From: a virus
DNA: 54,846 nt
Strand: one strand, 5' to 3'
IMG/VR virus record: IMGVR_UViG_3300044846_001025
Location: 1 to 54,846 of that record
Of this stretch, positions 6,937-26,760 are shown one piece after another (the stretch's first letter is position 1; each line of letters begins with the position of its first letter). The notes beneath the pieces are model-generated. The model did not search any database. It had not been told where the DNA came from and saw nothing but the letters and a program-made list of their open reading frames with translations. The position numbers were made by a program, and so were the translations under genes.

Positions 6937-6959
6937 TTCTTCTCTATATAGAGAGACAT

Positions 6960-6992
6960 GTAATTAAGAACTGAAGATGTTAGAGTAGTTAC
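6960..6992 (-). promoter_or_regulatory. Copy of the early-region motif (copy d)
   Basis: On the - strand it reads GTAACTACTCTAACATCTT, a short spacer, then TTAATTAC. It is the closest relative of the copy 55 nt further downstream. Confidence 0.42.
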
Positions 6993-7050
6993 TTTTTTGC
7001 CCGCCTTGGTTCCTACTGTTATTGTCTCTCTCTATATAGGGAAAAACAAA

Positions 7051-7068
7051 AGCACCCCGAAGGGTGCT
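7051..7068 (-). terminator. Intrinsic terminator after the SSB-like gene
   Basis: AGCACCC/GGGTGCT pairs around CGAA and is followed on the - strand by TTTGTTTTTCCC. It lies 12 nt past the stop of the SSB-like gene. Confidence 0.85.
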
Positions 7069-7080
7069 CTTGGTTAACTG

Positions 7081-7662
7081 TTAGAAGGGAACATCGTCCG
7101 CATTCGCAGTTTCTTCTACGGGAACATTCTCTGTAAGTGCAGAGAGGTCCGCAGTAGTACGCTGTGCGACAACCATTGTCTTGTCAGCATACTCTTTTGT
7201 GTCAGGGCGCAAGAAGCACTTACGATACACGAAATTACCGCGTCCGTCAGTTACTCGGGCCTTTGTGTCTCTGTCTAACTTGTAGGCAGATTCACGCACG
7301 ATGTAGTTACCGTTAGCGTCCTTTTCATTGATGATTTTGTAACTAACGGCTTCGTTGAAGTCAGAAGTTTCAATGATTTGGATACGCACGGCACGACCGA
7401 ATACAGATTCCAAGTTTACAGGGCTGATGCCGTTTTCTTGGAATTTGAAGGGTTCTCCCGAGGAAGTGTGCGAAATGTCGTCGGCTTTAATACCGAAGGC
7501 TTTTTCGAATACATCCATAGAGAATGTGTGAATAGCGGTACGCAATAAACGAGATTGCAAACCGAGTGAGAAGGCGGATAGTGAGTCGGATTCTACGCCA
7601 CATAGAACGCTAACGGAACCTTTTCCGTTAACCCAAGCCGAATAAGCGTTAACTGTGCTCAT
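7081..7662 (-). CDS. Probable single-stranded DNA-binding protein
   Basis: A 193-residue protein whose last residues (ANADDVPF) copy the acidic, Phe-terminated tip of bacterial SSB (DDIPF), the tip that recruits replication and repair enzymes. It is preceded by an acidic linker (about 175-190). The body is beta-rich with many Val, Arg and aromatic residues, as expected for an OB-like fold, but I cannot confirm that fold by eye. Its codon use is richer in CGN Arg codons than its neighbours, which suggests high expression. It is likely an early replication protein. Confidence 0.65.
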   Translation of the reverse strand: MSTVNAYSAWVNGKGSVSVLCGVESDSLSAFSLGLQSRLLRTAIHTFSMDVFEKAFGIKADDISHTSSGEPFKFQENGISPVNLESVFGRAVRIQIIETSDFNEAVSYKIINEKDANGNYIVRESAYKLDRDTKARVTDGRGNFVYRKCFLRPDTKEYADKTMVVAQRTTADLSALTENVPVEETANADDVPF

Positions 7663-7697
7663 ACTGAATAGTAATTAGGCAGTAAAGAAAAGAAAAA

Positions 7698-15206: not shown

Positions 15207-16898
15207 ATGGCGTTAAGGGCAGCAGTAGCGAATGGAAACTGGAGTAGCACAGCTACTTGGAACGGGGGTGTTGTACCTACCGTAGGAGATGTTGTTGCTT
15301 CTAACGGATTTACTGTAACCATTAATCAGAATATAAACGTAGATTCTATTACAAATGCTGCACAAGCTGTAGTGGGAGCAGTTCCTGATATGACTTCTGC
15401 AACTACACCAAGTGGTATTGTAACAGCTAGTCAATCAGAAACAGGCCTTCGTGCAGCTTTTAATGCTTTTGAGGGAGATTTTAACACAGAGTGGTGGCCT
15501 TCTGGAGCAGCATGGATAGCATACGAGTTTCCTACACCTAAAGCAATTGATCAGTATACTGTAGGTACTTATGGAGGTACAGGGAGTTGGACATTTGAGG
15601 GATGGAATGGAAGCACTTGGATAGTGCTCCACACTGTTGTTAATACAAGTTTTGGTTATACCTCACCTTTGATTGGGAATAGCGTTGCTTATATCAAGTA
15701 TCGTTTAAACTATAATCCAAGTGCACCTAGTCGATTACATACTATTCAATTCTATGAATACCTAGGTACATCAGCAGCAGTAGCAGGAGGAACATTTATA
15801 CTTAATGATGGAGTAACTGTTACATGCACAAACGCTACCAAAGGACTTGCAGCCCAAAATACAAACTCTTTAAATCTTCTTACATATTCTGGAACAGGAA
15901 CGGCAACGATAAATGCAAACGCTTTATATCAAAATAACACTAGTTCTAGGGATATTTTATTTAATAGTTCAGGTACATTGAATATAGTTGGTAATTTTAA
16001 GACAAACGTTACTTCATTTCAATCCTCAATTGCTAAAACTGGTACTGGGATATTGAATTTTACAGGAAGCATGGAGATGGTTTCTGGGTATTGTAAAGTT
16101 CTTGATTCTACCGCAGGAACTGTGAATATTACAGGAGACTGTACAATCACTTTTTGTAATGGTAATAGTGGATCATTAATTAATTTATCTCAAACTACAG
16201 CTAATATTTCTGGTAATTTGTATTTATATAACTGTACAGATAGAGTAACAATTTATGTTATAAGCAATAGTAATAATTCTATTCTTACAATTACGGGGAC
16301 ACTTACTGCTCAAGATCCTCCTACCCAAACAGCAAGTGGTAATTTTGTAATAAATAATAGTGCATACTGTAAAGTTATAGGTGCAATTATTTGTTTGTAC
16401 TATAGAAATCAAGGATATAACTCAACTTCTGCATCTGCTATAAATATACTAACAGGTCCTTTTGTTAGTGGACCGAATGGAGTACAACCAATCTACGTCA
16501 CTCGTATGCACTACCAAAGAACTATGGGTTCTTATTACGAGTTTAGAGATAATTCTACCAATGGAGCTTTACCTCCTGCTGCATCTGCTCCTGCTACTAG
16601 ATTAGTTAGTCCAGATACAATAGCTGATTCTCCTATTCCTGCAAACGTAAGACAAGGAACAGTTTATTCATTAGGTTCACAAACAGGCACAATGATAGTA
16701 CCTTCTCCCTCTAACGTAGCCAACAACGTACCTGTAGACAACACAGTAGGAACAGCAGTTCTTGACCCTACTGCTATATGGGCTGTCCCTTTGACTTCCA
16801 TTAACACGCTTAATAGTATAGGAAGAAGAGTTAAAAACGCTGCTACAGTTGAAACTACTGGAGCACAAATTCAAACCACATTAAATAATAATCCATAA
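15207..16898 (+). CDS. Receptor-binding-type protein A
   Basis: 563 residues. The N-terminal 55 residues (MALRAAVANGNWSST... QNINVDSITNAAQ) are nearly shared with the next gene and are probably the virion-attachment part. Residues about 60-185 resemble an F5/8-type (discoidin-like) carbohydrate-binding domain (AWIAYEFPTPKAIDQYTV, SWTFEGWNGSTWIVL). A long Asn, Thr and Gly-rich beta-helix-like region follows (about 190-430), then a C-terminal domain again shared with the next gene. It probably recognises host surface glycans. Confidence 0.7.
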   Translation: MALRAAVANGNWSSTATWNGGVVPTVGDVVASNGFTVTINQNINVDSITNAAQAVVGAVPDMTSATTPSGIVTASQSETGLRAAFNAFEGDFNTEWWPSGAAWIAYEFPTPKAIDQYTVGTYGGTGSWTFEGWNGSTWIVLHTVVNTSFGYTSPLIGNSVAYIKYRLNYNPSAPSRLHTIQFYEYLGTSAAVAGGTFILNDGVTVTCTNATKGLAAQNTNSLNLLTYSGTGTATINANALYQNNTSSRDILFNSSGTLNIVGNFKTNVTSFQSSIAKTGTGILNFTGSMEMVSGYCKVLDSTAGTVNITGDCTITFCNGNSGSLINLSQTTANISGNLYLYNCTDRVTIYVISNSNNSILTITGTLTAQDPPTQTASGNFVINNSAYCKVIGAIICLYYRNQGYNSTSASAINILTGPFVSGPNGVQPIYVTRMHYQRTMGSYYEFRDNSTNGALPPAASAPATRLVSPDTIADSPIPANVRQGTVYSLGSQTGTMIVPSPSNVANNVPVDNTVGTAVLDPTAIWAVPLTSINTLNSIGRRVKNAATVETTGAQIQTTLNNNP

Positions 16899-16904
16899 CA
16901 GATT

Positions 16905-18560
16905 ATGGCACTAAGAGTAGCAGTCGCAACAGGTAACTGGTCAAATCCAGCAATATGGAATGGAGGTGTACTTCCTTCTGCTGGAGATGTTGTTGCGTCT
17001 AATAACTTTACAGTTACAATAGATCAAAATATTAACGTTGATATACTTACGAATGCTGCACAAAGTATTGTTGGGATGGTTCCAAACATGACTTCAAATA
17101 CCTTACCTAGTGGTATTGTAGATCAATCTTCTTTTCTTGTTGGCTTTGAAGGTTGGAAAGCTTTTGGTAGTGGAGAGTGGCGATTTAATTTGGACGGTTG
17201 GGTTTCCTATGAATTTACAAGTCCTAAAGCTGTTAATCAATATTATTTCCAAGGAGATAGTATTAAATCTGCTTGGAATTTTGAAGCATGGAATGGTAGT
17301 AATTGGATTGTTTTACATTCAGTTACAGGAGCAAGTACAGGGGTTTATACCAGTCCGTTAATTGGAAATTCAACATCTTATATTAAATACAGATTATTTT
17401 TTTTCCATACTACCAACGGTAACAGAGTTGATACTGTTCAATTTTATGAATACTTAGGAACCACAGCAGCAGTAGCAGGTGGTGGGTTTTTAATAACAGG
17501 AAACAACATCACTGTTACTTGTACTACTACTTACAATGAAAATACCTACGGTACTGTAACTTTATTAACTGTAAATTCTACAGGTACTGTAAATATTAAT
17601 TTAAATTATGTCGGCAATAATATACTAAAAGACGTTGTTCTACTTAGCATAATAAATACTGGTATTGTTAATTACACAGGAAATTTTTATGCAGGTGGTT
17701 CCCCAGCTCCAATTAGTATTACTGCTGCGTGTACGTTTAATTTTACAGGTAATATTAGACAAATTTCAAATGGTACTGCGAGAGGTGTAATCTCTGTAAC
17801 AGCTACTAATTATACATTAAATATTACAGGTGATGTAGGGTTTGCCACGGGAGGACAAACAGGTTATTGTATTTTGATAAATGGAAATGGTAATATAAAT
17901 GTAACTGGTAGTCTAATTGGTAACGGTACAACTAATCAATCCGCTATTTCTATTAATTCTATTGCAACATTAAATGTAACAGGTTCTTGTATAGGTAATG
18001 GTATTGGTTCTGGTATTTTTACAGGGACTGCAAGTTATGTTAAAGTCATTGGTTCTATTATATCGAACGGGTCAGCAGGAGTAAATTCCTCAAATGCTTC
18101 TGCAATTAATCTATTTACAGGACCTTTTGTGTGTAGTCCTTATGGATTTGTTCCATTGCAAGTTGTAAGAATGCATTTGATTCCTACAGCAAATTCTTAT
18201 ATTGAGTTTAGAGACGAGACAACTAATGGAGCACTAAGTCCAGGAGCAATAGCACCTGCAACTCAATTAGTATCTCCTGCAACTCTAGTAAGTAACCTAG
18301 CAACCTCTGATGTAAGGTTTGGAATTGTATATGCTTTAGGAACTCTAACAGGAACTTTAAGAATGCCTACTGCAAACCAAGTAACCTTTGGCATACCTGT
18401 TGATACTACTTTTGGAAACGCAGTATTAACCGCTGCTTCTGTTTGGGATTACTTAGTAGCAAACATAACTACAGCAGATAGTATAGGAATGAGACTAAAG
18501 AATGTAGCCACTCCTCAAACAACAGGAGAACAGTTAGAAGCTTTTCTAAGATTAGATTAA
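16905..18560 (+). CDS. Receptor-binding-type protein B (paralogue of A)
   Basis: 551 residues with the same layout as the gene before it: conserved N-terminus (GDVVASNNFTVTIDQNINVD), discoidin-like domain (WVSYEFTSPKAVNQYYF, NFEAWNGSNWIVL), beta-helix-like middle with very different sequence, and a related C-terminal part (FRDETTNGALSPGA). The shared ends and diverged centre mark a tandem duplication that separated binding specificity. Six bases separate the two genes. Confidence 0.7.
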   Translation: MALRVAVATGNWSNPAIWNGGVLPSAGDVVASNNFTVTIDQNINVDILTNAAQSIVGMVPNMTSNTLPSGIVDQSSFLVGFEGWKAFGSGEWRFNLDGWVSYEFTSPKAVNQYYFQGDSIKSAWNFEAWNGSNWIVLHSVTGASTGVYTSPLIGNSTSYIKYRLFFFHTTNGNRVDTVQFYEYLGTTAAVAGGGFLITGNNITVTCTTTYNENTYGTVTLLTVNSTGTVNINLNYVGNNILKDVVLLSIINTGIVNYTGNFYAGGSPAPISITAACTFNFTGNIRQISNGTARGVISVTATNYTLNITGDVGFATGGQTGYCILINGNGNINVTGSLIGNGTTNQSAISINSIATLNVTGSCIGNGIGSGIFTGTASYVKVIGSIISNGSAGVNSSNASAINLFTGPFVCSPYGFVPLQVVRMHLIPTANSYIEFRDETTNGALSPGAIAPATQLVSPATLVSNLATSDVRFGIVYALGTLTGTLRMPTANQVTFGIPVDTTFGNAVLTAASVWDYLVANITTADSIGMRLKNVATPQTTGEQLEAFLRLD

Positions 18561-18872: not shown

Positions 18873-19574
18873 ATGGCTTATGTCTACAGACATATCAGGT
18901 TAGATAAGAATGTACCTTTCTATATTGGATTAGGTACAGATTCTAATTATTCTAGAGCACACCAAACTAAAAGTAGAAATCAACACTGGCATAATGTTGT
19001 AAAACACTCTGAGTATAGAGTAGAGATTATGTTAGACGATTTATCCTTTGAGGAGGCTTGTGCAAAAGAAGTAGAACTGATAAGTGTGTATGGCAGAGTA
19101 GATACTTGTGGGGGTACTCTAGTTAATTGGACTGATGGAGGACAAGGTACTTTAGGTTGGAGACATGAGGTAGGTTACTGGACAGGTAAGACTTTACCAG
19201 AATTTATGCGTAAGAATCTATCTGAAGTAGCTAAATTAAGAGTGGGAGAAAAGAACCACTTTTATGGAAAGAATCATTCTGAGGAAACAAAAGAGAAACT
19301 TAAACAGAGTAGATTAGGTAGCACCCTTACAGAAGAAACTAAACTTAAGATAAAAGAGTCTTTAAAGAACTCTGAAGCTTTTAAGAATAGAGTTCAGGCT
19401 GTTAGGCTAGGGGCAGACAATCCTAAATCTAAACAAGTAATCAATACCGAAACAGGAGAGACTTATGAGAACCTTAGAATAGCTTCAGAAACTACTGGAA
19501 TAGGCTACAATAAGTTAAGATCTTACTGCCAAGGAAAAGTTAAAAGCAAGACAAATTGGAATTATAAACTATAA
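18873..19574 (+). CDS. GIY-YIG homing endonuclease with NUMOD motifs
   Basis: 233 residues. The N-terminus (YVYRHI ... VPFYIGLG, about 3-21) is the GIY-YIG core, with Arg and His residues after it and a Glu-containing helix (AKEVELISVYG). The middle carries HFYGKNHSEETKEKLKQSRLG, a NUMOD3-type DNA-binding repeat, and the end (TGETYENLRIASETTGIGY) is NUMOD1-like. It is a free-standing mobile gene inserted between the holin-like and lysin genes, cutting DNA of related phages to spread itself. Confidence 0.85.
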   Translation: MAYVYRHIRLDKNVPFYIGLGTDSNYSRAHQTKSRNQHWHNVVKHSEYRVEIMLDDLSFEEACAKEVELISVYGRVDTCGGTLVNWTDGGQGTLGWRHEVGYWTGKTLPEFMRKNLSEVAKLRVGEKNHFYGKNHSEETKEKLKQSRLGSTLTEETKLKIKESLKNSEAFKNRVQAVRLGADNPKSKQVINTETGETYENLRIASETTGIGYNKLRSYCQGKVKSKTNWNYKL

Positions 19575-19587
19575 ACTATAAATAATC

Positions 19588-20226
19588 ATGAACTATACAA
19601 GAGAACAAATTGAAGCCGCAGTAAAAGCCAAGGGCTATGCTTACTTTGATGGCACAAAAGACTACGATGTAAATATCATCGGAGTACGTAACTCTTCTAC
19701 TGGTAACGATGTTACTAACTTGTTTGATGACACTATGACTGTTGCTTACAAAGTAGGAGGCAAATGGGTATTTCACCAATGGATGGCTACCACAGATCCA
19801 GGTACTAAAGGTGTTAAAGAATTTCACAATGCTGGTGGAGTAGCAAGACTAGTTCCAGGTCAGTACAGAGGTTCACACGGTATTGGTTTACACCAAGGTA
19901 AGTACGAAGCTTTGAAGCAAGCTAAACCAGTTAAGGTTTATCGTGATGCTAACAAAGACATGACTTACGATGAGGCTACCATCACTGAGGGTATCTACGG
20001 TATCAACATCCACAAAGCTGGTGCAGATTCTACTTTTGTAGAAAACTGGAGCGAAGGATGCCAAGTGTTTAAGCGTGAGAAAGATTTTAACCAATTTATG
20101 GAAATCTGTAAACAGGCTCGTGGCATTCATGGTAACTCTTTCACTTACACCTTGATTGAGTCTGGTGACTTTATTGTTGCTGATAAAGTAAAAGGCGAAG
20201 CTAAAAGAGCTGCTAAGAAAAAATAA
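19588..20226 (+). CDS. L,D-transpeptidase-fold protein, candidate endolysin
   Basis: 212 residues. H142, S155, G157 and C158 (IHKAG ... WSEGCQVF) reproduce the catalytic HxnSxGC pattern of the YkuD/L,D-transpeptidase fold. There is no signal peptide, and the C-terminus is Lys-rich. With a holin-like gene upstream, it most likely acts on cell-wall peptides after holin release. Whether it cuts or cross-links peptide bridges cannot be told from sequence. The C-terminus overlaps the next start by one base. Confidence 0.65.
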   Translation: MNYTREQIEAAVKAKGYAYFDGTKDYDVNIIGVRNSSTGNDVTNLFDDTMTVAYKVGGKWVFHQWMATTDPGTKGVKEFHNAGGVARLVPGQYRGSHGIGLHQGKYEALKQAKPVKVYRDANKDMTYDEATITEGIYGINIHKAGADSTFVENWSEGCQVFKREKDFNQFMEICKQARGIHGNSFTYTLIESGDFIVADKVKGEAKRAAKKK

Positions 20227-20681
20227 TGAAAAGACTACTCGTTAGTCTTTTAATATTCTTGACTATCTCCTGCAAAGCACAAACTATTGCTAAGGCAGGA
20301 GATGGTTGGGATTTAAAGATTGACTCAGCCATACAACTTATAAAGACCATTGACCCTGAAAAGTACAAAGTCTTTACAGATGTGTGTCAAAGAGTTGATT
20401 TTTGGAAAAGTTCTTTTTCTTCCACAGGTGTAGTTGATGGAGACTACACGATATTTATAGCAGATGCAGACATTAAGTTAAAGTCTATCAATAACTTAGC
20501 GGCTGTGTTAGTTCACGAAAGTATGCATTTAGTATTTGTTTTAGAAGATGCAGTCATGAGTGAAAAGGAAGAAGAATTTAAGTGCTATTTGTATGAATTA
20601 TCCTTCATTAAAAACATTCCAACCCCCGAGCCTTGGTTACTGGCAAACCTTTATGAAAAATTGCAAAAATATAAACCATGA
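20226..20681 (+). CDS. Exported HExxH zincin-type protein, possible lipoprotein
   Basis: 151 residues. The N-terminal signal (RLLVSLLIFLTISC) ends in an LTISC lipobox-like site with Cys16, or could be cut before Gln19. HESMH at 97-101 supplies the zinc ligands and Glu of a zincin metallopeptidase, with Glu116-118 as a possible third ligand. It is coupled by one base to the lysin gene and by ATGA to the T9SS-tail gene. A role in cutting envelope proteins during lysis or surface change is inferred. Confidence 0.65.
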   Translation: MKRLLVSLLIFLTISCKAQTIAKAGDGWDLKIDSAIQLIKTIDPEKYKVFTDVCQRVDFWKSSFSSTGVVDGDYTIFIADADIKLKSINNLAAVLVHESMHLVFVLEDAVMSEKEEEFKCYLYELSFIKNIPTPEPWLLANLYEKLQKYKP

Positions 20682-22567
20682 AAAAAATACTTTTGTTTGT
20701 ATTGGGGTTGCTTATCCTCACTACTAGCCTCATTGCACAAAGTGCAAACACTTCTCCTGGAACTGGTCATTGGGTTGTTATAGACTCAGGTTATCAAGTT
20801 GCTACAACTACTGTAGGTAAAACAGTAGCACCCCTGCATTTTTACAACACTTCTACTTCAGAGAAAATTACAGGTATGCAGTTTCGTGTATTCTATGATA
20901 AGACTGCATTTACTGGTGTTGTGCCTACTTTAAAAATCTCTACTTCAGATCAATACCTTCAGTATGTAGATAGTAATTTACAAGGATTCTTAACTGTAAC
21001 TCTAGCTTACACAGGTTCTAATTCTTCATTTAATTATTCTGACGGTGCTACATTTGATTTAACTTTTACTCACGCTGCCGAAGCTATATTTAACAACTTA
21101 GATTCAATCAAGACTTTGAAAGTTGCAGGTGTAAAATCATTTGCAAATAGAGCTGCTACTAACTGGGGTAACGATACCACTTTGGTTGTCTACTCTTATG
21201 GTGGTCGTTTTAACCAAAAGGTTCTTCGCTTTGCTGCTAAGTTTAAAAACGTTACGGGTTCTGATGCTAAGAATCTTTGGGTGTCTTTAGAAAAGAAAAC
21301 TCCTACAGGTTCTTGGACACACGTAGAGTCAAAATCAACTAACTCATTGGGCCACGTAGTATTTAAGAAATTTATTGATACTACCTACTGGGATGTAAGA
21401 ATGGTTGTTAAAGGGGATACAATGACTCCTGGTAACGTATTCTCTACTGCTGACGCACAGAAGATTAACCAAGCAATCCTTGCACAATATACTCCAACAG
21501 GATTTGACTACTACACTATGGATGTAAACGGAACTAGCGGAGACATTTCTATTGCTGACGTTTACTCTGTTTATGGTCGTTTGGCAGGAAGATTTTCTTC
21601 TTGGCCCAACTCTAAAAAGGACGTAATGTTCTTTACAGTAGCTGAGTACAATGCTATCAACGGTGCTACTGCTAATCCAACCTCTACTTACGCAACTGTC
21701 AACAACTTCAACTATTCTATTGACGGTAGAGACTCTATTACTTACTACGTAGCAGTTAAAGGAGACGCAAACTCTACAGGATTTAAAATGGCTCGTCTGA
21801 CTCCTATTAAAATTGTCAATCAAGCAAATGCTAAGAACTACATCATTGACAAAACAGTAAGTTATGATGACCCTTCTTTGGAGACAGTAGAAATCAATAT
21901 GCCCAAAGTAAAAGTAGAGGACGGTAATTTGGTGAGCGTACCAGTTAAAGTTTTGACTAACGGTAGAGACCTTACTGCTCTTCAGTTAGACCTTAAATAC
22001 GATACTGCTTACTTGTCTTTCAAACAGATTGAAGTAACAGAAAAAATTATGAAGTGGACTGCTTACACAAATCCTTCTAATGGAGTTGTGTCTTGGGGAG
22101 GAGCTGACCTTACAAATGCCAATCTGTTAAAAGACGGAGAACAAGTATTTACTCTTCAGTTCATTGCTAAGAAACCACAGGATTCTTGGGCTACAGCAGC
22201 CATCTGGACAGCAGAAAAGTACGTAGGTGATAACAAGGCTAAGGATATGAACATTAAACCTACTATGGGCATTATTGAGGTTCGTAGAAAAGGATTGGTA
22301 TCTATCAACCAAGTAAGTGACCTAATGGCATTTCCAAATCCTTCAGAAGGTGCTGTCCAAGTACAATTCAAGATAGCCGAAGAGTCTGACGTAAACTTGT
22401 CTTTGTACAATGAGGTAGGTCAGTTAGTCCAAAATATTCTAGACAAGCACATGCCTGTAGGAAACTATAAGTACAGCGTGGACTTAGAAAGATTACCTGA
22501 CGGAGTTTATATCTTAACTCTTAAAACAGAAAAACAAGTCCTAGATTCTAAACTATTAATCATATGA
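20678..22567 (+). CDS. Secreted cohesin/dockerin protein with T9SS C-terminal sorting domain
   Basis: 629 residues. Signal peptide 1-20, cut before Gln21. A cohesin-like beta domain (about 30-175) is followed by an Ig-like or prealbumin-like region, a dockerin-like Ca-binding loop DVNGTSGDISIADVY (282-296), then RFSSWPNSKKDVMFFT and a second cohesin-like domain (about 400-535). The last ~80 residues (MAFPNPSEG at 550-558, then YNEVGQLVQ, GVYILTLKT, KLLII) are a textbook type A T9SS sorting domain. It should be exported through the host T9SS and fixed to the cell surface or released. Finding this on a phage is unusual. Confidence 0.85.
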   Translation: MKKILLFVLGLLILTTSLIAQSANTSPGTGHWVVIDSGYQVATTTVGKTVAPLHFYNTSTSEKITGMQFRVFYDKTAFTGVVPTLKISTSDQYLQYVDSNLQGFLTVTLAYTGSNSSFNYSDGATFDLTFTHAAEAIFNNLDSIKTLKVAGVKSFANRAATNWGNDTTLVVYSYGGRFNQKVLRFAAKFKNVTGSDAKNLWVSLEKKTPTGSWTHVESKSTNSLGHVVFKKFIDTTYWDVRMVVKGDTMTPGNVFSTADAQKINQAILAQYTPTGFDYYTMDVNGTSGDISIADVYSVYGRLAGRFSSWPNSKKDVMFFTVAEYNAINGATANPTSTYATVNNFNYSIDGRDSITYYVAVKGDANSTGFKMARLTPIKIVNQANAKNYIIDKTVSYDDPSLETVEINMPKVKVEDGNLVSVPVKVLTNGRDLTALQLDLKYDTAYLSFKQIEVTEKIMKWTAYTNPSNGVVSWGGADLTNANLLKDGEQVFTLQFIAKKPQDSWATAAIWTAEKYVGDNKAKDMNIKPTMGIIEVRRKGLVSINQVSDLMAFPNPSEGAVQVQFKIAEESDVNLSLYNEVGQLVQNILDKHMPVGNYKYSVDLERLPDGVYILTLKTEKQVLDSKLLII

Positions 22568-22914
22568 AACTAAAAGAAAAACTTGGTTTTGGCCAAGCAG
22601 AGCCCGTAGCAGTACCAGATAACAATCGTTTCTACTACATGCTACAACAAATGCAAGCCAATCGTTGGAAAATTACCGCTATCGTATTGGGCTTGTTTAC
22701 TCTAATCATTGTAGGTATTAATGCTGCTGTCTTTGTAGGAGCTTCTATTGGAGAAGACTGGAAAGAAATGTTACTTATCCTCTTAGGAGCTTTTGTAGGT
22801 AACTTGAACAAAGTAGTTGACTACTGGTTCAACTCTGAAGACAGAGACAAAATGTTAATACAGAAGGTGGATGAGGAGGATGGTGTATCTTTGTCAAACA
22901 CAACTAATCCATAA
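22564..22914 (+). CDS. Small membrane protein, holin-like
   Basis: 116 residues with two hydrophobic segments (about 38-59, TAIVLGLFTLIIVGINAAVF, and 68-84, EMLLILLGAFVGNLNKVV), then a polar tail with DYWFNS, an ending often seen in phage holin-type proteins. It starts on an ATGA overlap. It could be a second holin or antiholin. It would sit in the inner membrane. Confidence 0.6.
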   Translation: MKLKEKLGFGQAEPVAVPDNNRFYYMLQQMQANRWKITAIVLGLFTLIIVGINAAVFVGASIGEDWKEMLLILLGAFVGNLNKVVDYWFNSEDRDKMLIQKVDEEDGVSLSNTTNP

Positions 22915-22918
22915 TATT

Positions 22919-23242
22919 ATGTCAGAAGAACAAGAAGAAGGCGGAATGTCTGGTGTAAAGAAAGCAATCATCGGAGCAATTACCACAGCGGTAACTGCAG
23001 GTGGTGCTTGGTTTGCTACTCACTTAGGTGGTGGCGAAGATGAAAAGCCAGAAACTCCAGCAGCTGTAGCTGCTCCCGCACCTGTGATTAACATCACTAC
23101 GAACAACGAACAGAAGCAACAGGCAAACACTGGTGGCGGTAATACCGTTATCATTAAGGAAAAGGCAGCACCTGCTGCATCTACTCCTGCCCCTGCTGCT
23201 CCTGCGTCTAAACCCCAAGCAGATGAAGAAGATCCTTGGTAG
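22919..23242 (+). CDS. Single-pass membrane protein with Ala/Pro-rich tail
   Basis: 107 residues from ATG 22919. One transmembrane segment (about 14-33, IIGAITTAVTAGGAWFATHL) follows a short acidic N-end. The rest is Ala, Pro and Gln-rich and disordered-looking, ending EEDPW. The shape (one anchor plus a long flexible arm) would fit a spanin-like or envelope-bridging protein, but no family is recognised. Its last 20 nt overlap the CsgG-like gene. Confidence 0.55.
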   Translation: MSEEQEEGGMSGVKKAIIGAITTAVTAGGAWFATHLGGGEDEKPETPAAVAAPAPVINITTNNEQKQQANTGGGNTVIIKEKAAPAASTPAPAAPASKPQADEEDPW

Positions 23243-23912
23243 CCTACTGTTAATAATCCTTATCTATGGTTGTGGTTCTATGAAGACCACAACCGAGGAT
23301 GAGGTTATTGAGAAAAAAGATATTTCTAGCGTGTCTGGATATACTGATTCTATTAAGAAGAACGTACAAGTAATTAGCATGGACATGACTAAAGTGTTGG
23401 CTATGTACCCAAGTCTTCAAGAGAAGAATGTAGGTTTAGGTTTTGCAGAATCCGTATTAGATTATTTAGATGAAACAAATCGTTTTGTATTTACTGAAGA
23501 GAAGGGTGAAATCAAGGAAAGGATGGTAACTCAATTCAAAGCTTCTAAAAAAGGAGTCTTTGAAGAACCTATTGACGGCAAAGGAAAAATTAAAGCTGCC
23601 CACTACTTTGTTTATGTAACCGTTGCTGATTTTGCAGTAGACGAGGACGAGACCGTACAAGGTGGAAAAGCTAAAGTAGTGGTAACTACTTTTATCCGTT
23701 TGCAAGTTCGATTTGTAGACGCTAAAACAGGACAAATTTACATTGGTTCTGGTGAAGGCGAATCTATAAAAGTAGGAGAGTCATTCTTAAAATCTCTAGA
23801 CGATATGAAGTTTTCTCAAAGTACCGTAGGTAAGGCAACACGAAAGTCGCTTGAAACAGCAACTACCAAAGTGATTGAAAACCTTATTAGAAACGGTGTC
23901 TTTAAGAGCTAA
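23223..23912 (+). CDS. CsgG-like outer-membrane lipoprotein
   Basis: 229 residues from ATG 23223. The signal ends in LIYGC with Cys17 as lipidation site. The middle and end follow the CsgG/HfaB pattern: GLGFAESVLDYLDETNRFVF, then a conserved KAAHYFVYVTVADF strand pair, VVVTTFIRLQVRFVDAKTGQ, and a C-terminal helix STVGKATRKSLETATTKV. CsgG proteins assemble as lipidated outer-membrane export pores for curli. Short CsgG-like lipoproteins without a pore also exist, so pore function is inferred. Confidence 0.68.
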   Translation: MKKILGSLLLIILIYGCGSMKTTTEDEVIEKKDISSVSGYTDSIKKNVQVISMDMTKVLAMYPSLQEKNVGLGFAESVLDYLDETNRFVFTEEKGEIKERMVTQFKASKKGVFEEPIDGKGKIKAAHYFVYVTVADFAVDEDETVQGGKAKVVVTTFIRLQVRFVDAKTGQIYIGSGEGESIKVGESFLKSLDDMKFSQSTVGKATRKSLETATTKVIENLIRNGVFKS

Positions 23913-25338
23913 CATATTAATCTTACTATTGAGTATAGGACTGAGTTTAAAAGCTCAGTCCTTTACCTACTCGTACACAGACCCGTGTACAAAACAATTA
24001 AAGTTCATTCTTGCTGATATGAACTCTCCGATAGTAATAAGTTACTACGGACAAGTAAAAAACTTCAGTTACACAGAATTGCAAGATGGTACATTTGACG
24101 CTTGGTTAAATTATACTTATGCCAATTACAAAACAACAACCCCATGTCAAGGAGTTTTTGCAACAACTACTACAACTACAAGCACAACAACTATAACTTC
24201 TTTAGTAAATAATGTGATGAATCTTAACTCTTTAACGAGTTTAGATTTATCTTCGACTTCGCTAGGATCAAGTACTTCAATAGGAAGTACAACATCTTCT
24301 GGCACAAATGTAAAAAATGACTCTAAAAATGGAAGCTCGAATAACAAAGTTGGTAGTAATGGAAACAATAGTACTACTGATAATTCTGGGAATAATTCTA
24401 GTAACAGTGACCAGTCATCTGGACAAGGGTCCAATACGTCGTCAGAAGGACAAGTAGGCAATGGAAGCAACTCAAGTAATAATTCTAATGGCTCTAATGA
24501 TGCTGGGGGTAACTCTGGGAGTGGCTCTAGTTCTTCTTCTAGTGGTGGTGGTAATGGTTCTGGTGGAGGTGGTGGTTCAGGCACCGCAGGTGATAAGAAA
24601 CCTGAAGAAAAAACTCCTGAAAAGATAGAAGAACAAAAGAGTGAAACCCAACAAGCAGGTGGAAGTTCATCCGCAAAAGCCGCTGCTAAAGGTAAAGTAG
24701 AAACTCAAAAACCAGCTATTCTAGTTACAGGGGATATAGTTGGAGTCCAAACTGTTAAAGATCAAGCACAAGACGCTAGAGCAACAATGTCCTTTACTAG
24801 AGTTAAAGGAGATGGTACTGCCTCTATAGGACTTGCAGCTGACTATATGATCAATGCTAAAATAGGAAACTTTAATGGTGTACGTTCTTGGATGGGTGTC
24901 AACAAGAAAGGTAACAAACATATCAATGTTCTTTCGGCAGGAATTAACCTCATGCCAAAGTCCTACAATGGTTCTTTGTTGTTTGTGAGGGTAAACTCGC
25001 TAAAGAACTTTACAGCACTCTACGGAGCCGCTGCATCGTATGGCGAGTTATTTCAAGAAGAAGTTATATCTACCCTACTGATAGGCGGTTTTATGTATAA
25101 GGGACAACTTACCAAACACATAGACGCTACTATTATTGCCGCTAGTGTTTACGCTCCTTATACAAAGTATTACACAGAGTCTCTATTTGAATCTCAACCA
25201 ATTATAGTTCCTTTTTTAAACATCAACTATTCTCTAACTAAGACTTTTAAGGTGGGATTCACAGGAGGAGGAACTTACATTGCAAACCAAGATGTTGTAA
25301 ACTATCAATTACTTATAGGAGGGAAGTTAAAGATATGA
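23896..25338 (+). CDS. Exported protein with low-complexity linker and probable outer-membrane barrel
   Basis: 480 residues from GTG 23896 (MSLRANILILLLSIGLSLKAQ), chosen over TTG 23875 because it places a standard signal peptide at the N-end. A short Cys-containing N-domain is followed by a long Thr/Ser/Asn/Gly-rich stretch (about 80-230), a charged Lys/Glu segment, and a C-terminal part (about 275-480) of alternating hydrophobic strands ending LLIGGKLKI, as in outer-membrane barrels. It overlaps the CsgG-like gene by 17 nt, which suggests joint work. No family is recognised. Confidence 0.6.
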   Translation: MSLRANILILLLSIGLSLKAQSFTYSYTDPCTKQLKFILADMNSPIVISYYGQVKNFSYTELQDGTFDAWLNYTYANYKTTTPCQGVFATTTTTTSTTTITSLVNNVMNLNSLTSLDLSSTSLGSSTSIGSTTSSGTNVKNDSKNGSSNNKVGSNGNNSTTDNSGNNSSNSDQSSGQGSNTSSEGQVGNGSNSSNNSNGSNDAGGNSGSGSSSSSSGGGNGSGGGGGSGTAGDKKPEEKTPEKIEEQKSETQQAGGSSSAKAAAKGKVETQKPAILVTGDIVGVQTVKDQAQDARATMSFTRVKGDGTASIGLAADYMINAKIGNFNGVRSWMGVNKKGNKHINVLSAGINLMPKSYNGSLLFVRVNSLKNFTALYGAAASYGELFQEEVISTLLIGGFMYKGQLTKHIDATIIAASVYAPYTKYYTESLFESQPIIVPFLNINYSLTKTFKVGFTGGGTYIANQDVVNYQLLIGGKLKI

Positions 25339-26318
25339 GATGGTTAATCGTATTTTTGCTATGGACAGTTGATTTATCTGCCCAGTTTACCTATTCAGGA
25401 TACTTATATAATGCTAATGGGTCAGGAGCTGTTAATGTTCCTATTAGACTTTATCGTAGGACGAACGCAACCATTACAGGCTTTACTAACCAACAGAACT
25501 ACAACGGACACTCTTATTATCGTTCTACAGGAACTGCTACATGGACTACTGCTAGATCTAACTGTGCAGCTATGGGTGGTTATCTAGTAACTATTACTAC
25601 TGCAGCTGAACAAAGTTTTATATTTAATATATGGCCTTCTGGATGGATAGGATTAACAGATGAAGTGACTGAGGGTACTTGGAGATGGGTGACAGGAGAA
25701 ACTTACTCTTATAAAAACTGGAACTCTGGAGAACCTAATAACGCAGGTAACGAAGACTACGTTCAATTTGTATCTAACGGAAGGTGGAATGACTTACCTA
25801 ACAATGTTTCATTACCTTACGTGTTAGAGTTTGACTATGTAGTTACAACTTCTTCTTGGGCACTATATAAGACTATATATACTAACTCTTCGGGTTACTA
25901 TTCTATATCTGAGGCTTATGACCCGTCTAAAGAATACTACATAGAAATAGTAGCGCCTACAAGAATACAAGCTTACACAACTTCAGATGTACAAGCTGTT
26001 TCTAACATTGTTCTTAACAAAACTGCGAGGAATGGTCTTTCTTTTCATATGTTTGACGTAAACGATGATGGTATAATATCAGTAGCAGATAAGTACTATA
26101 TAGCTGCAAGAAAGGCTGGGAGATTTTCTAGATGGAGATTAGCCCCAGATGTTCGTATCTTTACAACAGCACAATACAATACAATTAAAGCAGCTACTAC
26201 AAATGTAAGAGGAACTTATCCTGGAGTCAGTACTCATACTACTTCTACTCTTACCTCAGGAGGAAGTTTAAGTCTTTACCTAATAGCACCTGGTTATGCA
26301 GGACAAGTAACATACTAA
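25335..26318 (+). CDS. Secreted C-type lectin with dockerin-like module
   Basis: 327 residues. Signal peptide 1-16, cut before Gln17. A C-type lectin domain covers about 52-166, with WIGLTDE (104-110), the mannose-type Ca-site motif EPN (133-135) and WND (151-153). Cys77 has no clear partner cysteine. A DVNDDGIISVAD Ca-binding loop (241-252) and the following RFSRW...DVRIFTTAQYN resemble the same module in the T9SS-tail protein. There is no T9SS tail, so it may be released or bind the first protein. It is coupled by ATGA to the barrel gene. Confidence 0.8.
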   Translation: MRWLIVFLLWTVDLSAQFTYSGYLYNANGSGAVNVPIRLYRRTNATITGFTNQQNYNGHSYYRSTGTATWTTARSNCAAMGGYLVTITTAAEQSFIFNIWPSGWIGLTDEVTEGTWRWVTGETYSYKNWNSGEPNNAGNEDYVQFVSNGRWNDLPNNVSLPYVLEFDYVVTTSSWALYKTIYTNSSGYYSISEAYDPSKEYYIEIVAPTRIQAYTTSDVQAVSNIVLNKTARNGLSFHMFDVNDDGIISVADKYYIAARKAGRFSRWRLAPDVRIFTTAQYNTIKAATTNVRGTYPGVSTHTTSTLTSGGSLSLYLIAPGYAGQVTY

Positions 26319-26319
26319 C

Positions 26320-26760
26320 ATGAAAAAACTAATCATACTCTTAATCCTAGCATTTGCAGGTTCGTTGAATGCACAATGCTACAAAATTGACACCGTTAGA
26401 AACCACACACAACTAAGAACTATTGCAGGTAGGCCTGTAGACTTTGGTATAGTGGCAACGGCTGAACAACTTATCTCTGCCAAGTATTCTTTGTGCGATA
26501 CAGGCATTGGAGTTGACCTTGCAATTAACACAATTGCTATGCCTCAAAGACTAATTAACATTGCAGGGTTGCAGTTACTAAAAAGGGATTATGTAGTTAA
26601 TATGTCCATCACAGCTAATAACATTACACATTATTCTAGGAACGTAAAGACCGTTTATGTCAATGCTATGTTCCTAACTGTAGAGGACATTCCTCACAAC
26701 AAAAAAGCATACTCTAGGGCGGTAGAGAAGTGCTTAATAGATTTAGTTAAGGAGTTGTAG
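26320..26760 (+). CDS. Small exported protein, unknown
   Basis: 146 residues. The signal (KLIILLILAFAGSLNAQ) is cut before Gln19, next to Cys20. The mature part has a beta-alpha-beta look (IAGRPVDFGIVATAEQL, KRDYVVNMSITANN) and ends in an amphipathic helix. No family is recognised. It ends with TAG and closes the exported-protein block. Confidence 0.6.
   Translation: MKKLIILLILAFAGSLNAQCYKIDTVRNHTQLRTIAGRPVDFGIVATAEQLISAKYSLCDTGIGVDLAINTIAMPQRLINIAGLQLLKRDYVVNMSITANNITHYSRNVKTVYVNAMFLTVEDIPHNKKAYSRAVEKCLIDLVKEL

Follow-up and report, generated by a model that had tools for sequence, protein, structure and literature searches.

The putative scaffold protein and its neighbouring genes

The window (the whole stretch of DNA analysed, 54,846 nucleotides of an IMG/VR virus record) contained an open reading frame at 20678–22567, which starts with ATG in an ATGA overlap with the preceding gene and encodes a 629-aa protein, here called the scaffold. 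The parts of the scaffold and the neighbouring genes from the endolysin to the small exported protein, described below, lay, like this frame, on the plus strand. The scaffold consisted of a signal peptide, cohesin 1, a beta-sandwich, a dockerin-like module, cohesin 2 and a type A sorting domain (CTD) of the type IX secretion system (T9SS). An earlier note on this DNA had picked out the signal peptide and the T9SS tail, but two cohesin domains, a dockerin-like module and a conserved gene set were missing from it.

The sorting domain occupied the very C-terminus (residues 552–628, 22331–22561). Searches with the Por secretion C-terminal domain models gave significant matches to the same residues, for PF18962 (Por_Secre_tail, profile positions 2–75 of 75) with E 1.7e-11 and 44.7 bits against a curated cut-off of 27 bits, and for TIGR04183 (T9SS type A) with E 2e-9 and 37.3 bits against 23 bits, confirming the type A tail. 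The scaffold family profile also matched T9SS sorting-domain chains in the PDB (8glk_D, E 5e-4; 8glj_D, E 0.01). When all six frames of the record were searched, a single T9SS-tail match emerged, at 22331–22561, with 48.3 bits. At the other end of the protein, the predicted signal peptide covered residues 1–20 (20678–20737) and read MKKILLFVLGLLILTTSLIA, followed by a glutamine, Q21, that was invariant in scaffold alignments. Such a glutamine after the hydrophobic stretch is of the Bacteroidota type. The N-terminal signal peptide named in the earlier note is present.

The Pfam Cohesin model (PF00963) matched the scaffold in two stretches (E 5.9e-11, 43.2 bits, cut-off 24.1). Cohesin 1 covered about residues 24–180 (20747–21217), with boundaries taken from the alignment, and cohesin 2 covered residues 405–533 (21890–22276). 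The full-length AF2 model of the scaffold was poor (mean pLDDT 47) and was used for the cohesin 2 region only, where pLDDT was mostly about 60–80; Foldseek aligned this region to type I cohesins of cellulosomes with a target TM-score of about 0.8. Between the cohesins (21218–21793) lay a beta-sandwich, resembling PITM1-3/CarboxypepD_reg domains below threshold, and then the dockerin-like module. One intact calcium-type loop was visible in this module, DVNGTSGDISIAD, and its first loop was degenerate. The Pfam dockerin model (PF00404) had no match in the window scaffold at E 0.1. Weak Dockerin_1 matches were obtained in 9 of 26 scaffold homologues (best E 2.3e-4) and in 9 of 44 proteins from the lectin slot described below, and positions 243–308 of the scaffold family profile aligned to the PDB dockerin 4uyp_B (E 0.023). 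Because a single loop was visible, the homologue matches were weak and the window sequence had none, the module is designated dockerin-like and not dockerin. It was common to the scaffold and the lectin protein.

The genes around the scaffold were tightly ordered and overlapping. A probable endolysin (19588–20226; phrog_33083 endolysin, 2.5e-12; phrog_3000, 4.6e-37) was a neighbour of the set. The gene overlapping the scaffold start by ATGA (20226–20681) encoded an exported HExxH protein (motif HESMH), conserved beside the scaffold and possibly a zinc peptidase. Downstream were a co-conserved protein with hydrophobic segments (22564–22914), holin-like by appearance only, and a co-conserved single-TM protein (22919–23242) with a Pro/Ala/Gln-rich tail ending in EEDPW, whose homologue in Flavobacterium phage immuto matched phrog_2658 (‘hol-like’, E 6e-4). 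The most conserved member of the set was a lipoprotein of no recognisable family (23223–23912), which was a Q-rule protein (see below) in other lineages; its AF2 model was unusable (pLDDT 39.7). A CsgG/curli-like channel had been considered for this gene, prompted by its helix/strand order and a VDAKTGQ motif, and was rejected after every test failed: there was no Pfam or PDB profile match, and hhalign to E. coli CsgG gave a probability of 1.5. Next came an exported protein with a low-complexity middle and a C-terminal part resembling an outer-membrane barrel by appearance (23875–25338), an exported C-type lectin (25335–26318; PF00059, 7.1e-18) with a dockerin-like C-terminal module, and a small, co-conserved exported protein (26320–26760). 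An anti-phage defence system was also considered for the set and rejected; PADLOC gave one weak match and nothing more.

All Crassvirales hallmarks (major capsid, portal, terminase and ring proteins) were found in the window phage. The capsid was of crAss type (PF23898, E 3.5e-28, in a Pfam search of the window), PF25710 matched at its cut-off, and the terminase and portal matched phrog_6681 and phrog_6547, respectively. Since the nearest named capsids were only 21–28% identical, the window phage is a distant member of the crAss order. The best named match to its capsid (27% identity) came from Leptolyngbya phage Lbo-JY46 (PP438436.1, L094), whose recorded host is a cyanobacterium, an unexpected host for a phage with a capsid of this type.

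In the window, the scaffold sat between tail-fibre genes and the terminase. Comparison with a near-identical phage (L003) gave about 50% identity for two tail-fibre genes (window 15207–18560) and 97–100% for the scaffold and most of its neighbours; fibre exchange between these phages appears to be recent. A homing endonuclease gene (NUMOD3, phrog_314) lay near the gene set at 18873–19574, and its relatives were inserted at differing places inside the set in three other loci (L010, L035 and L043).

Distribution, conservation and export signals of the gene set

The set, of roughly eight genes, was found in about 80 IMG/VR loci through the scaffold, and in about 80 further loci when the search started from the lipoprotein's counterpart in immuto. 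Set-bearing records included contigs of 270–308 kb. Gene order within the set differed between lineages, and the set was often adjacent to lysis genes. A crAss capsid match was detected in only 3 of the 29 large set-bearing records searched, a count in which fragmentary contigs may lack the capsid trivially. The complete genome of immuto had no crAss capsid match either; as a different phage, it indicates that carriage of the set is not confined to a single phage type.

In immuto and its relatives the scaffold was split into two genes, one with cohesin 1, a middle part and the dockerin-like module (COH1-X-Doc) and the other with cohesin 2 and the sorting domain (COH2-CTD), each having its own signal peptide. 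The tail of immuto was on the COH2 half and scored over the Pfam cut-off. The two halves of the scaffold can thus exist as separate chains. The immuto set was placed among DNA-metabolism genes. Relatives of the tested endolysins were nearby in 58 of 63 loci of the fused type versus 2 of 13 of the split type, and endolysins matching phrog_181 (1.8e-67 and 4.2e-63) adjoined the set in two further lineages. No PHROG structural match was obtained.

The T9SS tail was kept in 148 of 151 distinct cohesin-2 frames. Of the three exceptions, one was truncated where its contig ended, one (L176) had an in-frame stop before an intact tail and one (L050) was probably frameshifted. The L176 frame (6946–7680) was a scaffold half with a single stop ahead of the tail, which is either a sequencing error or a rare tail-less form. 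Among the larger virus records, 55 were searched and exactly one PF18962 match per record was found (32/32 and 23/23), on scaffold-length frames or, in the split type, on the cohesin-2 half. The lectin-slot proteins therefore had no T9SS tail. Over 56 close pairs the dN/dS of the CTD was 0.20, compared with 0.08–0.19 for other scaffold domains and 0.32 for the linker, values that point to purifying selection on the tail.

An exposed glutamine is characteristic of signal peptidase I substrates of Bacteroidota (the Q-rule, PMC5837995). Distinct homologues were scored for a small residue and a glutamine after the hydrophobic stretch. This pattern was present in 78/78 scaffolds, 93/93 lectin-slot proteins, 83/83 barrel-like proteins and 42/44 HExxH protein homologues, but in only 12/83 and 1/46 homologues of the two TM proteins of the set, and in 14/34 other phage ORFs with an N-terminal hydrophobic stretch; the sequences counted are related and hence not independent. 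In the scaffold the glutamine was retained within an otherwise variable signal peptide (dN/dS about 0.45). Q-rule signal peptides have been noted in phages of Porphyromonas gingivalis (PMC10367356).

The same tail was present in many IMG/VR records and in immuto, which carries the gene set and was isolated on Flavobacterium sp. LMO8. Flavobacterium is a genus known to have a T9SS. A Sphingomonadaceae host, suggested by one MAG contig (L083, RFPL01000028.1), was rejected; the contig was 99.9% covered by viral loci and had a GC content of 33%, and its T9SS tail was the sole one in the 3.4-Mb MAG. It is a mis-binned phage contig contaminating a public Sphingomonadaceae MAG, and apart from it no scaffold relatives were found in bacterial genome contigs.

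The lectin-slot protein had a constant signal peptide and dockerin-like end, and its front was swapped between unrelated folds. Among 44 diverse members, the fronts comprised C-type lectin (29), GEVED (8), laminin-G (7) and PA14 (3) domains. Close scaffold pairs had wholly different fronts in 13 of 32 cases, with the dockerin-like end still similar. Front swaps were seen in the window (25335–26318) and in five other loci (L002, L019, L044, L061 and L063), some of the fronts being unclassified. The lectin front also differed between the window and L003, where the core was 97–100% and the two fibres about 50% identical, and this prompted the idea that the payload co-varies with the tail fibres. 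It was rejected by a partial Mantel test across 34 loci after stricter removal of duplicate contigs (0.04, p 0.18); a p of 0.01 with duplicates retained was inflated. The notion that the payload is matched to the receptor of the phage itself thus gains no support.

A possible surface scaffold and its alternatives

The cohesin and dockerin-like architecture, together with the gene set, says more about function than the T9SS tail does. We put at about even chances the reading that the protein is a phage-encoded, T9SS-anchored cohesin scaffold showing exchangeable lectins on the infected cell. More tentatively, and at somewhat under even chances, many phages of aquatic Bacteroidota would use a cellulosome-like display, in which the one tailed scaffold per genome takes tail-less, dockerin-tagged and freely exchangeable lectins with it through the host T9SS and presents them on the surface of the infected cell.

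The scaffold would be exported by Sec with its Bacteroidota-type signal peptide and would then cross the outer membrane through the host T9SS by means of its tail. Like other type A cargo, the scaffold would subsequently lose its tail and be anchored at the cell surface. Export by Sec and the host T9SS is the best-supported step and is strongly supported in silico. The earlier note had also predicted that the protein uses the host T9SS to reach the surface, and this reading is borne out in part: the sorting models, purifying selection, the Q-rule and the Flavobacterium phage support export well.

The cohesins would then hold partners equipped with a signal peptide and a dockerin-like end but no tail, chiefly the lectin encoded nearby. 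Such binding is what a lone tailed scaffold beside tail-less partners most naturally suggests, and it agrees with the split in immuto. Since each genome has a single tail, the partners would either be passengers of the scaffold during export or join it on the cell surface. Cohesin-dockerin assembly of the scaffold and its partners is plausible but unproven. Finally, the sugar-binding fronts (C-type lectin, GEVED, laminin-G and PA14) would coat glycans of the infected cell. We infer that the purpose is receptor masking, with the likely benefits that superinfection would be blocked and that receptors on the dying cell, or on its debris, would no longer trap progeny. The Llp lipoprotein of phage T5 is an analogue that blocks superinfection and progeny capture by receptors. 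The frequent position beside endolysin genes fits glycan masking. Counted against the surface scaffold are the lack of a dockerin match in the window at E 0.1 with its degenerate first loop, the null result of the payload/fibre test, the scarcity of endolysin relatives at immuto-type loci (2/13) and the poor AF2 model.

The endolysin relatives near most fused-type loci and the phrog_181 endolysins beside other lineages also suit an outer-envelope lysis module, in which holin- and spanin-like proteins act while the T9SS-delivered scaffold and lectins cause the outer membrane to break by loosening or cross-linking the capsule or surface layer. The ‘hol-like’ match of the immuto TM protein and the tight, overlapping genes point the same way. 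However, lectin and cohesin are binding modules with no lytic enzyme fused to them, the split type mostly has no endolysin relatives nearby, and payload swapping suits recognition better, so we consider this role unlikely, at about one chance in five. Similarly unlikely is an adhesin system that would aid spread, not masking, by sticking infected cells, or released virions attached to scaffold that has been shed, to algae, particles or other cells. It would have the same anatomy, lectin, PA14, laminin-G and GEVED fronts are often found in adhesins, and payloads that do not track tail fibres may track environmental glycans; but infected cells are short-lived, barring a carrier state.

Two further explanations fare worse. 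The place of the scaffold between tail-fibre genes and the terminase in the window would suit a component of the virion whose likeness to T9SS cargo is superficial. Such a role is very improbable because of the Q-rule signal peptides, which are found on most exported members of the set, and it is also opposed by the place of the immuto set among DNA-metabolism genes, by the absence of a PHROG structural match and by the conservation of the tail with its low dN/dS. Domains like these are common in Bacteroidota surface proteins, as would be expected if a host gene had been caught by chance and had no phage function. Strong purifying selection, long-term conservation in several phage types and the lack of relatives in bacterial genome contigs beyond the one mis-binned phage contig make this explanation extremely improbable.

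If the surface scaffold is real, phages would alter the host surface beyond the Sec and lipoprotein routes, through the trans-outer-membrane machine specific to Bacteroidota and their relatives. Their design would be modular and of the cohesin-dockerin kind, with interchangeable sugar-binding parts that share one exported anchor. A further question, for the T9SS, is whether a tail-less protein can be secreted by binding tailed cargo. Such questions are directly testable because the set is present in a cultured Flavobacterium phage, immuto.

Comparison with known systems

Phage T9SS cargo is already known. The open-access literature was searched for phage cohesin-dockerin systems and for this gene set, and neither turned up; papers elsewhere are possible. 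The earlier note had treated the tail as unusual in a phage, a view tempered by T9SS sorting domains in Cryophage (PMC7468147) and in one gut crAss-like cluster (PMC6949934).

Cryophage resembles the window phage as a Bacteroidota phage encoding proteins with T9SS type A sorting domains. Its cargo genes vary between strains, and superinfection exclusion was suggested for them (PMC7468147). There, three cargo genes (endoglucanase, GH39 and PA14) have a tail each (PMC7468147), whereas the window phage has a single tail on the scaffold and variable domains on tail-less, dockerin-like partners. The crAss-BACON cluster 2 proteins likewise come from crAss-like phages, carry a T9SS sorting domain and are encoded near head genes, but they belong to gut phages and have BACON carbohydrate-binding domains; in the passages of that paper on this cluster, cohesin and dockerin are not mentioned and the function is left open by the authors (PMC6949934).

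The isolated phage immuto (MW353176.1) and its relatives share most of the gene set at about 25–54% identity, and differ in having the scaffold as two genes. The immuto record is annotated with cohesin, C-type lectin and hypothetical proteins only, and the T9SS tail is unmentioned.

The scaffold resembles the cellulosome scaffoldins of Clostridia, with an anchored cohesin scaffold, separate binding modules with a dockerin-like end and a cohesin 2 of the type I fold. It differs from them in that no cellulase was found, it is phage-encoded, its dockerin-like module is weakly matched, the interaction is predicted, and a T9SS tail replaces the Gram-positive anchor.
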